From an uncultured Candidatus Melainabacteria bacterium (GTDB lineage: Bacteria > Cyanobacteriota > Vampirovibrionia > Gastranaerophilales > Gastranaerophilaceae), in assembly GCA_947090755.1 (NCBI GenBank), contig CAMUPF010000018.1, positions 1-33,881 of the forward strand: a DNA stretch of 33,881 bases, read 5' to 3'. The position numbers were made by a program, and so were the translations under genes. Below, piece by piece: positions 1 to 33,881 of the stretch (its first letter is position 1; each line of letters begins with the position of its first letter). The notes under the pieces were generated by a model that saw nothing but the letters and a program-made list of their open reading frames with translations, did no database searches and was not told where the DNA came from.

Positions 1-1006
1 CAAAATTTGTGCAATTGGCGACCCGAATCAGGCAATTTACGGATTCCGCGGCGGTGATTCAAGGTTCTTCAAGAACTTTACACAGGACTATCCGCAAACA
101 AAAATTATCAACCTGAAAAACAACTATCGTTCGACAGGAAACATTGTTAATGCCTCAAACCAGATGATTCAAGAGTTTAACATTGTGTCAATGTACGACA
201 AGCCGCATGAAAAGCTTACAATCCACACGGCACCCACCGACAAGGCCGAAGCAGAATTCGTCGCAAGTACAATCGAACGACTAATCGGCGGGCATAGCCT
301 GTTTTCAATTGATTCCGACCGCTCAACCGGTCAGGAGTGCGAATATTCGTTCTGTGATTTTGCAGTTCTTTACCGAACCTACTCACAGCTTCCGGCATTG
401 ATTGAAGCGCTTGAACGGACAGGCATGCCTTTTGTAACATTGTCAAATGAGCCATTGTGTGAAAAGAAGCCGGTTCGTGAACTTTTGAAAAAACTCAATG
501 CTGAAACAGAAATCGCAGAACAACTTAAGTTACTAAAAGAAGATTTTTCCGATAAAATTACGGACAACATCTGGCAATTTCTGACGAATCTTGCTCAAAC
601 TCACCGTGAAAAAGACGACTTCATCCACGAGGTTTCGCTCGTGACAGAAGCCGACACTCTGGACAAACGCGCTGACCGCATAACGTTGATGACACTTCAT
701 TCATCAAAAGGTTTAGAGTTTAAATGTGTCTTCATTACTGGGCTTGAAGACGGGATTTTGCCGCTTTACCGTGCAAAAGAATCCTCTGAAATCGAAGAAG
801 AACGCCGGCTTTTATATGTGGGAATGACCCGCGCTGAAGAGCGTCTGTTTCTAACCCGTGCCGAAAAACGACGTTTACACGGATTTATGCAAGAAATGCC
901 TATTTCGCCATTCTTACAAAAAATCGAAAACGATCTTTTGAATCTAAGTAAATTTGACAAAGTTTTTAAAGAAAAAGACAATTCACAGCAGTTAAGTCTG
1001 TTCTAG
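1..1006 (+). CDS. UvrD/PcrA-like superfamily I DNA helicase, 3' part
   Basis: An ATP-dependent 3'-5' DNA helicase of the UvrD/Rep superfamily, cut by the window edge; the frame is open from base 2. Visible motifs are GDPNQAIYGFRGGD (helicase motif III region, bases 20-61), NNYRST (motif IV, about 119-136), TLMTLHSSKGLEF (motif V, near 690) and EEERRLLYVGMTRAEERL (motif VI, near 800). Only about 110 residues separate NNYRST from the LHSSKGLEF block's lead-in, so the 2B subdomain is much shorter than in UvrD or PcrA; this suggests a divergent branch, perhaps one fused to another N-terminal domain outside the window. The last residues are QQLSLF, matching the bacterial sliding-clamp binding consensus QL[SD]LF. 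The gene ends 15 bp inside the convergent multi-HTH gene. The helicase call is firm; the exact subfamily is not. Confidence 0.93.
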   Translation, partial: KICAIGDPNQAIYGFRGGDSRFFKNFTQDYPQTKIINLKNNYRSTGNIVNASNQMIQEFNIVSMYDKPHEKLTIHTAPTDKAEAEFVASTIERLIGGHSLFSIDSDRSTGQECEYSFCDFAVLYRTYSQLPALIEALERTGMPFVTLSNEPLCEKKPVRELLKKLNAETEIAEQLKLLKEDFSDKITDNIWQFLTNLAQTHREKDDFIHEVSLVTEADTLDKRADRITLMTLHSSKGLEFKCVFITGLEDGILPLYRAKESSEIEEERRLLYVGMTRAEERLFLTRAEKRRLHGFMQEMPISPFLQKIENDLLNLSKFDKVFKEKDNSQQLSLF

Positions 1007-2144
1007 ATTTTTGCCTGCTGATAATATCCGACGCATTGTACTTTTGCTTATATTTAACTCTTTGCAAATTTCTTCTGATTTTTTACCGTCATTGCGCAGC
1101 GCCAGAATTTGCTCTTTTGTAACATTTGAAATTATATCACTGGAAATTCTTTGAGGTGTTGCAAGATTGTATTTACGGATTAATGCTATATAATTCATTT
1201 CGCTAATTTTATACTTAGCACAAATCTCCTTAACAGTCATACCGGCATCCAAAGATTTTTGAAGTTCATCTTTAGGGACAGACATTATCCTATCTATGGA
1301 ATCCCGAAATACGGTTTTTACTCCTGCCTCCTTCGTCTTCTGGTAGTATGTTGTTAGTGAAACGCCTAATTCTTTTGTTATTTCCTCAACAGTTTTTCCG
1401 GAATTTGCTAACTCTTCAAGCCTTTGTTTAGGAATCTTTATTTCATTTGAGTTATGCAAATAATTATATTTAATATCAAATCGCTTTAGTAAACGATAAA
1501 ACATACAATCATTAATCTTTAATCTAGTGCAGATTTCCGGCTTTGAACAACCACTATCCAAAAGAGATTGCAGCATTTCAGGTTTTATAGAGGCAATATG
1601 TTTTTTAGCCGCTTTTCTTCCTGTTGTCAGCCCAAATTTATCCAGAAGACGTGAATATGTTCGCTCCGAAATATTTAACTCTTCACAAATTTTCTTCACG
1701 GTCAAGCCGCTATGAATAAGATTTTCCAATCTTTCTTTTGTAATTTCTGAAATATTTTTCTTTGCCTGCATAGAATCAGTCTTAATACCAAATTTTGCAA
1801 GAAGCGTATTATATGTATCCTCGGATATTCCTAATATTTTAAGAATTTCGTTATATTTTTTACCGGAATTGTGCAACTCTAAAATCTGCTCTTTTGTAAT
1901 CGTGGAATTATGTTTAACAGAGGCTCTATATGGCGTTTGAATATCCAGTTTTCGAACCCAATAGTAATATGTTGAAGGCGTTATATTCAAAGACTCGCAG
2001 ATTTGAGCCACTGAGAAGTCCCCCCCCCCCGCAGACTGCAATCGACTTAAATTTTTGAACATTAAATTTTGGCCCTTGTGCCTCAAAGTTTATTCTATAA
2101 TTTTCTCGTTGCAATGTGTAATTCGGGTTAAACGATATTCTCAT
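992..2144 (-). CDS. Tandem helix-turn-helix repeat protein, G-tract interrupted (candidate phase-variable gene)
   Basis: A protein built of about seven divergent units of roughly 51 residues. Each unit looks like an HTH: pattern [TK]-x-E-x-L-x-x-L-x-x-[SN]-G-x-[TK]-x-x-E-I-C-x-x-L-x-I-S-x-x-T-Y, for example KERLENLIHSGLTVKKICEE. The best start is ATG at 2144 (MRISFNPNYTLQRENYRINF). That frame meets 11 consecutive G (minus strand, 2030-2020) and is thrown into a frame ending at 1926, a 72-residue product. With 10 G the N-terminal part joins the HTH repeats to give about 383 residues. As printed, only the downstream part from ATG 2062 or TTG 2086 reads through. No good Shine-Dalgarno precedes any of these starts. 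DNA binding is inferred from the HTH pattern; targets are unknown. The divergent neighbours are cell-surface sugar genes (glf, GT2), so control of surface polysaccharide is possible but speculative. Confidence 0.75.
2020..2030. repeat. 11-bp poly-C (poly-G on the coding strand) tract inside the multi-HTH gene
   Basis: Eleven uninterrupted C on the plus strand. It lies at about codon 39 of the minus-strand gene starting at 2144. Changing the tract by one base switches which upstream frame joins the HTH repeats: 10 or 13 G joins the MRISFN N terminus, and 11 G does not. Homopolymer tracts of this length are known hot spots for slipped-strand mispairing, and also for assembly error. Confidence 0.9.
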
Positions 2145-33080: not shown

Positions 33081-33749
33081 ATGGCTGACATCAGGGAATT
33101 AATTTCCTCGTTTACAGAAGAAGATTACGAAAAGAGTTTAGTAAATTTACATATCCACACAAACCACTCCGACGGCGTCGGCGACTTTGAAGACATCGTA
33201 AATCAGGCGCAGGAAAAAGGTTATAAGTACATAGCAATTTCTGATCACAACACCATGAACGGTTATATAGAAACCGGAATCCAACGCGATTTTCTTATTC
33301 CGGCCTGCGAATTTGACGTCTGGTGCGGTTATGTTTTCTGCCACCTTCTTGCGTACGGAATAGATTACAACCACCCTGCAATCAAACCGTTTTTTGCAAA
33401 ACATAAATACGAAACCGTTCGTAACGTAATCCGTTTACTTCCAACACGCAACCTGAAAAAATTAATCGACGCAATCCACGAAGCGGGCGGAATCGCAGTA
33501 GTCGCGCACCCTGCGTGTTACTGGGCGTTAAGCCTTGACAGCCTTTTTGCAAAAATGAAAAAACTCGGACTTGACGGGGCGGAATGCTATTACCCTTATG
33601 GCCGCCTGAGAGGAATTATTAAATTCCACAAACGTGAACACGTAATCAAATACGCAGACAAACACGGCCTAATCAAAACCGGCGGCACCGACCTGCATAA
33701 AGAAATTTTAGAACCTATTAAATTAAAAAAGAAATTGGTCAGGCATTAA
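33081..33749 (+). CDS. PHP-domain metal-dependent phosphoesterase
   Basis: A 222-residue PHP phosphoesterase resembling TrpH/YciV (RNase AM-like nucleases and 3',5'-bisphosphate phosphatases). The metal-binding motifs are NLHIHTNHSDGVGDF (residues 17-31), ISDHNTMNGY (about 52), ACEFDVWCGYVFCHLLAYGI (about 75), VVAHPACYW (about 139) and GGTDLHKE (about 205). ATG 33081 is chosen because AGGAAAAAAG precedes it, and a TATAAT at 33045-33050 lies just upstream. The longer frame would add a membrane segment and overlap the divergent gene. Confidence 0.9.
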   Translation: MADIRELISSFTEEDYEKSLVNLHIHTNHSDGVGDFEDIVNQAQEKGYKYIAISDHNTMNGYIETGIQRDFLIPACEFDVWCGYVFCHLLAYGIDYNHPAIKPFFAKHKYETVRNVIRLLPTRNLKKLIDAIHEAGGIAVVAHPACYWALSLDSLFAKMKKLGLDGAECYYPYGRLRGIIKFHKREHVIKYADKHGLIKTGGTDLHKEILEPIKLKKKLVRH

Positions 33750-33754
33750 TCAAA

Positions 33755-33783
33755 TTGACAAGGGTTAAAAAATAGTTTAAAAT
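33755..33783 (+). promoter_or_regulatory. Strong sigma-70-type promoter before the last gene
   Basis: TTGACA (33755-33760), exactly 17 bp, TAAAAT (33778-33783). Transcription would begin about 33790, and GGAGGT follows 5 nt before the ATG. It begins 6 bp after the PHP stop codon. Confidence 0.85.
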
Positions 33784-33816
33784 TAATATGTAATTATATA
33801 AATTCTGGAGGTACTA

Positions 33817-33881
33817 ATGAAAAAACAAATCCTGAAAAGCCGTGATTTATGGCCGTTTCCAGTGAGGGGGGGGGGGCAAGA
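33817..33881 (+). CDS. N terminus of an unidentified gene with an in-frame 11-G tract
   Basis: Only about 21 codons are visible: MKKQILKSRDLWPFPV, then R-G-G-G-Q encoded across the G tract. A strong promoter and GGAGGT before the ATG show that it is a real start. As printed, the frame passes through the 11 G into CAA GA. The gene continues outside the window, so neither product nor ON/OFF state can be read. A surface or pilin-like protein is one possibility, but nothing visible proves it. Confidence 0.6.
   Translation, partial: MKKQILKSRDLWPFPVRGGGQ
33866..33876. repeat. 11-bp poly-G tract near the start of the last gene
   Basis: Eleven uninterrupted G beginning 49 bp after the ATG. It has the same length as the tract at 2020-2030 and is also early in a coding frame. 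A candidate slipped-strand site. Confidence 0.85.

Follow-up and report, generated by a model that had tools for sequence, protein, structure and literature searches.

The window analysed here is contig 18, 33,881 nucleotides long, of a genome assembly (G000) comprising 1.78 Mb in 53 contigs and estimated to be 99.98% complete. The organism, a gut bacterium, belongs to the Gastranaerophilales, which are non-photosynthetic relatives of the cyanobacteria, and its closest named relatives are assemblies designated Candidatus Gastranaerophilales or Melainabacteria, including Candidatus Gastranaerophilus phascolarctosicola. At the 3' end of the window, on the forward strand, lies a gene with matches to PHP-type families that encodes a PHP-domain phosphoesterase (33081-33749); its orthologues in six congeners (58-95% identity) mark the syntenic place in related species. 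Directly downstream of it, a consensus scan recovered a promoter-like site with 11 of 12 consensus matches (33755-33783, forward strand), formed by TTGACA (33755-33760), a 17-nt spacer and TAAAAT (33778-33783), and the sequence further reveals a GGAGG ribosome-binding site (33807-33811, forward strand) 5 nt 5' of an ATG (33817-33819). The near-consensus promoter and ribosome site described in the initial annotation are thus present, a single promoter-like site of such quality being unremarkable in itself (0.7 expected in shuffles of the region). The ATG opens the start of a prepilin leader, MKKQILKSRDLWPFPV plus one base (33817-33865, forward strand), a distance of 49 nt or 16 codons plus 1 nt, after which a G11 run, the presumed switch, occupies 33866-33876 on the same strand. 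Re-reading of the sequence bore out both the length of exactly 11 G and the position about 16 codons into the gene that had been given for it. The same leader class precedes G runs elsewhere in this genome and at the syntenic locus of a related species (G006).

Contig 18 stops 5 bases beyond the run (last letters CAAGA). Its last 54 bases (33828-33881, forward strand) were found by script to overlap exactly with the end of contig 23 and with part of contig 32, where they likewise belong to a pilin locus, and it is because of this repetition that the assembly ends here; the last 115 or so bases of the window additionally recur, with divergence, at 18 other places in the genome. Beyond the overlap contig 23 encodes KNALADADSVGLRSA immediately followed by FTMAEILL and a 319-residue mature pilin, and it is inferred to be the most likely continuation of contig 18. 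On this inferred join the G11 run is one G above the length that places the pilin of contig 23 in frame; the reading frame after the run, which the initial annotation had proposed to follow beyond the contig end, is therefore not intact and meets a stop after 27 codons. The G11 run at the end of the window sits early in a member of a prepilin family of over 100 genes for hair-like surface fibres, nearly all of which have a G run that probably turns them on or off by the gain or loss of a base.

For runs of at least eight G the window yields 8 overlapping matches where 0.18 would be expected, and none of 100 shuffles reached 8, in keeping with the earlier statement that chance would rarely yield G runs this long. 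Across the genome there are 117 such runs, and in a 221-kb sample drawn around them the run lengths form two separate groups, with counts close to zero at 6-10 and a second peak at 11-13. A survey for G runs at gene starts, likewise proposed earlier, revealed that they are not scattered: at least 84 of the 117 lie within 330 nt upstream of a paralogue of a single prepilin family, and about 17 more, including the window's own, are situated at contig ends where the pilin is cut off. A ribosome-binding site and an ATG with an open leader are present at 98 of 113 runs. This concentration of the runs in the leaders of one paralogous family supports the contingency-locus system that the initial annotation had postulated, and the excess over chance combined with the tie to surface genes meets the repeat criterion for such loci. 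Most of the runs in this genome serve a single gene family and have a fixed position in it.

A profile built from 67 of these pilins and searched across the genome recovered about 127 copies, together spanning about 115 kb or 6-7% of the genome; 84 of them are preceded by a G run at a distance of no more than 330 nt, and most of the others begin at contig ends. The run is placed between a short start peptide and the prepilin motif FTMAEILLSLTIIGVVAAITLP, 0-82 codons before the latter. In all copies FTMAEILLSLTIIGVVAAITLP is preceded by A or G, and this residue before the F, the E at position 5 and the hydrophobic N-terminal helix satisfy the criterion for type IV pilins. Pilins of known structure match residues 1-26 with E-values of 0.002 to 0.4, and the sole match to the Pfam N_methyl profile, under its cut-off, is a divergent copy (L090). 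A structural model (mean pLDDT 89) contains the long helix of pilins (residues 3-49) and, beyond a middle part, a C-terminal domain (residues 225-314). This domain aligns with the C-terminal domain of Legionella Lcl (VIA Z 10.4, rmsd 1.6 A over 88 residues, 25% identity), a Foldseek search with it recovered 8q4e with an E-value of 4e-4, and many C-type lectins are found at VIA Z 7-9. On the strength of the model, the C-terminal 90 or so residues are predicted to adopt a C-type-lectin-like fold, as in Lcl. The likeness lies in the fold. Matches to Pfam PF07603 (Lcl_C) are weak and remain just under the gathering cut-off (best 33.3 bits against 34.9), and Lcl itself is an adhesin of Legionella rather than a pilin. 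Ligand binding by the domain is an inference for which there are no binding data. Column identity is 0.99 at the N-terminus versus 0.3-0.5 in the C-terminal part, the most variable region of the family. Machinery genes are present in the genome, namely a prepilin peptidase (PF01478) on contig 17 and PilB/PilT-type ATPases (PF00437) on contigs 36, 5 and 15.

Two further observations concern individual copies. L138 (contig 32, 3407-3888) has a full leader and a G13 run, after which only a C-terminal pilin fragment (profile positions 193-309) is present, and this we read as a rearranged or degraded copy. At L157, L195, L231, L321 and many other loci the translation between the run and FTMAEIL resembles interspersed repeats (CHPELDSGS..., RNKFGMT), and repeat elements seem to have been taken in frame into the removable leader.

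The reading frames around the runs provide considerable clues regarding the consequences of run length. At 78 of 80 loci no stop codon interrupts the pilin frame between the run and the pilin, and the other two frames were stopped in 120 of 124 tests. Of the 80 loci, 45 lack any start codon beyond the run that would be in frame with the pilin, and just one locus has such a start with an RBS-like site before it; initiation after the run was accordingly rejected for nearly all loci. Since starts after the run are lacking or without an RBS-like site, translation of the pilin must set out from the ATG before the run, and from that start leader and pilin are linked in frame by a single run length out of every three. 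Run lengths between the ATG and the pilin extend from G9 to G15, one in three being in frame, and the contingency-locus criterion that run length should decide expression is met. As assembled, 17 loci are ON, with leaders of 19-69 residues, which is long for prepilins, and 58 are OFF, 54 of these exceeding the in-frame length by one G and 4 falling short of it by one, with products of a median 20 residues. These states rest on one assembled length per run from one genome per species without reads, and length differences are thus seen only between loci or species, as in the leader MKKLNVLICA, which occurs with G12, G12 and G9. The in-frame length varies with leader class and the commonest observed length shifts along with it (p = 2e-8), so that what is preserved is the state of the frame and not the length itself. 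Natural controls are furnished by pilin copies that lack a run or have a short G6 in frame, a few of the run-free ones possessing short leaders of the normal kind. The lean towards one G too many is independent of the in-frame length (54 of 75 loci in this genome and 28 of 45 in relatives). It is not accounted for by simple slippage, and may reflect selection for an OFF state with a one-step route to ON, or else low-level expression by polymerase slippage.

The pilin genes themselves are maintained irrespective of their assembled state. All 78 complete mature pilins are intact (298-334 aa), pairs of OFF genes have a pN of 0.07 and a pS of 0.75 over codons 1-60, and the closest pilin pairs have a dN/dS of about 0.1, with saturated synonymous sites and conserved proteins. 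Purifying selection and intact frames together imply that the OFF genes are being kept and are not decaying, as would be expected of contingency loci. The saturated synonymous sites rule out that the constant N-terminus stems from recent duplication or gene conversion. Leaders and the segments after the run are associated overall, and weakly or not at all within the main leader class, a mixed picture that gives no clear support to their free reassortment at the run.

The arrangement is found in five congeners and two further genera. Five of the six congeners examined possess 87-127 G10 runs and 105-127 pilins, and over 17 genomes pilin count and run count correlate with a Spearman coefficient of 0.79. 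The sixth congener (G005) has no G10 runs and 22 pilin matches, a state that could be either a loss or ancestral. At the syntenic place 3' of the PHP gene, G006 shows the same leader class with G11, G002 a different leader with G12, and G003 a run-free pilin, and in G004 a G11 pilin is situated 1.27 kb further from the PHP gene. Outside the genus, G027 (genus g22) has another pilin subfamily with G10-G11 in a different leader, 2 loci being ON and 9 one G short, and the arrangement is also present in G072 (genus g47). Within the family, at least one G10 run was found in 263 of 356 genomes and at least 50 in about 36 (counted by eye), with a maximum of 176. A run in the pilin leader is not a family-wide rule, as the runs sampled in G019 and G083 are located elsewhere. 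In G019, loci L343-L348 have a G10 run behind MADTEIKNGQ or MVTKxSGKN leaders, with an immediate TAA in one frame and a shared GGTTTTGGCGATTTTT, and these are perhaps another switched family unrelated in arrangement to the pilin leaders. No copies that could have served for a comparison of run lengths were found in viral contigs. Many copies of the pilin family are also encoded in the JAMPIJ01 records (L156, L160, L177 and others), which are labelled Fusobacterium sp. NALB_7963_5; judging by its gene content, this assembly is probably a mislabelled Gastranaerophilales genome.

The observed position of the runs, their frame logic, the intact and conserved pilins with their predicted lectin fold, the machinery genes and the conservation across species lead us to propose, with considerable confidence, slipped-strand phase variation of a very large repertoire of adhesive pilins, in which slippage, leader cleavage, pilus assembly and ligand binding are inferred. 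The pilin copies are dispersed through the genome and as a rule possess start signals of their own, and translation would proceed from the ATG before the run through a glycine stretch and 0-82 further codons into the pilin, whose leader would be removed by prepilin peptidase before FTMAEILL. Slipped-strand mispairing during replication would gain or lose a G, and the one length in three that keeps the frame would be ON, the remainder stopping after a median of 20 codons and being OFF. As the run is in the part that is cleaved off, switching would alter whether a pilin is made and not its mature sequence. Each cell might thereby display its own subset of pilins with different C-type-lectin-like C-terminal domains. 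Lost mismatch repair does not offer itself as the cause of run instability: MutS1 scores above its curated cut-off in 17 of 18 genomes, this one included, both with and without runs, so that the absence of MutS cannot be what makes the runs unstable (MutL was outside this test).

The most serious alternative is that RNA polymerase, or the ribosome, slips on the G run without any mutation, such that off-by-one alleles give a low set level of pilin. Most loci being exactly one G off the pilin frame, and length tracking the frame class as though the state were preserved, would both suit this explanation. Against these stand the 17 loci that are exactly in frame, the spread of lengths from 9 to 15, the existence of copies without a run or with G6, and the opposite lean of G027 towards one G too few; we accordingly consider it unlikely, though it is not excluded. 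Two other explanations have only a slender chance of being correct. The OFF copies could be dead genes or silent recombination donors, as pilS is for pilE, with the runs as by-products or recombination sites; most copies are indeed OFF at the assembled length, and expression could be confined to those few pilins without a run that have short, normal leaders. However, the OFF copies keep a ribosome-binding site, an ATG, an open leader and complete frames, and consequently do not meet the criterion for donor cassettes (copies without a start and a complete gene). They are also under strong purifying selection and have saturated synonymous sites, whereas synonymous divergence should be lower had gene conversion occurred recently. 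Equally doubtful is the notion that faulty assembly or sequencing produced the run lengths and that the genes are simply always on. Long homopolymers are error-prone and no reads stand behind the lengths used here, but the modal length differs among leader classes within one assembly and the offset is reversed in G027, a combination that a constant error, such as one of +1, cannot give; moreover, runs at the same place in dozens of genes from several assemblies cannot themselves be errors. That a G run arose by chance in a random gene, for which no supporting evidence was found, can practically be discarded in view of the shuffles, the two length groups, the fixed position in the family and the syntenic presence elsewhere.

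Poly-G phase variation is textbook biology of mucosal pathogens, and several known systems share elements with the slipped-strand switching proposed for these pilins. One of them is Opa of Neisseria, in which CTCTT repeats occur in the leader-peptide coding sequence (PMC3745409, PMC5953494): both are scattered multigene families of surface adhesins with a repeat in a removable leader whose frame sets ON or OFF. Opa, however, comprises about 11-12 genes for outer-membrane barrels with pentameric repeats, whereas more than 80 genes with an observed run, encoding type IV pilins and using a single-base run, are involved here. In the poly-G phase-variable genes of Campylobacter, whose runs number 32 in C. 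jejuni NCTC11168 and over 80 at most in a figure of a review (PMC8355987), and in pilC, pglA and pglI of Neisseria (PMC5953494), runs of about 9-20 G within the coding sequence similarly shift the frame. These systems affect many unrelated genes, mostly of glycan and surface modification, whereas most of the present runs are tied to a single paralogous family and a fixed position in it. The pilE/pilS system of Neisseria likewise combines type IV pilin diversity in many copies with repeat tracts reported in some pilS (PMC5953494), but relies on one expressed gene and silent donors that act by recombination, unlike the present pilins with their own start signals and complete frames. The vlhA genes of Mycoplasma gallisepticum, with GAA repeats near their promoters (PMC6258824), are comparable as a large paralogous surface family with a repeat switch on each member. 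There the repeat is upstream in the promoter region, and in the pilins the G run is inside the reading frame.

No description of phase variation, homopolymers or type IV pili in Gastranaerophilales or Melainabacteria was found in the literature searched, which left out most subscription journals and all preprints. The switch principle is known; what appears to be new, judging from the papers searched, is the class of gene, the scale, the presence of a lectin-like domain and the lineage. A fuller reading, which we hold to be evenly balanced between right and wrong, is that about 6-7% of the genome of this cyanobacterial relative from the gut is given over to more than 100 lectin-like pilins, that most of these are poly-G-switched with a default one base off, and that the pili on any cell, which would bind ligands (or face phages or antibodies), are a small selection differing from cell to cell; as part of the same reading, we know of no larger family of adhesins switched by a simple repeat. 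If true, the Gastranaerophilales would constitute a test case for commensal diversification of adhesion, immune visibility or phage receptors. With their predicted states, ON or OFF, the 75 loci of this single genome form a quantitative test set that metagenome reads already available could serve to check. Annotation pipelines will probably treat most of the pilin genes as truncated or place their starts beyond the run, thereby hiding about 6-7% of the genome.

A minority of the runs fall outside the pilin family. The initial annotation had paired the run at the contig end with another early G11 tract of the window; both tracts are real, the other one being located at 2020-2030 on the minus strand, but it belongs to an unrelated gene (992-2062, minus strand), in the early part of which it lies. 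This gene encodes repeated helix-turn-helix domains (MFKNLSRLQSAGGGDFSVAQ...) and is in frame at G11, and its product is possibly a phase-variable DNA-binding protein in the ON state. About 15 runs of this genome are not associated with pilins, for example L077 (contig 8, 16310), L023 (contig 1, 102610), L134 (contig 26, 12964) and L073 (contig 4, 80995); such runs occur inside an acyltransferase and adjoining PRTase-CE and SLT-domain frames, and a G8 run is found inside the gene for the DNA polymerase III alpha subunit. Contig 15 begins (positions 1-12, L118) with a C run directly 5' of a pilin start, on the strand opposite to that of the usual G run, which is probably a chimaeric contig end.
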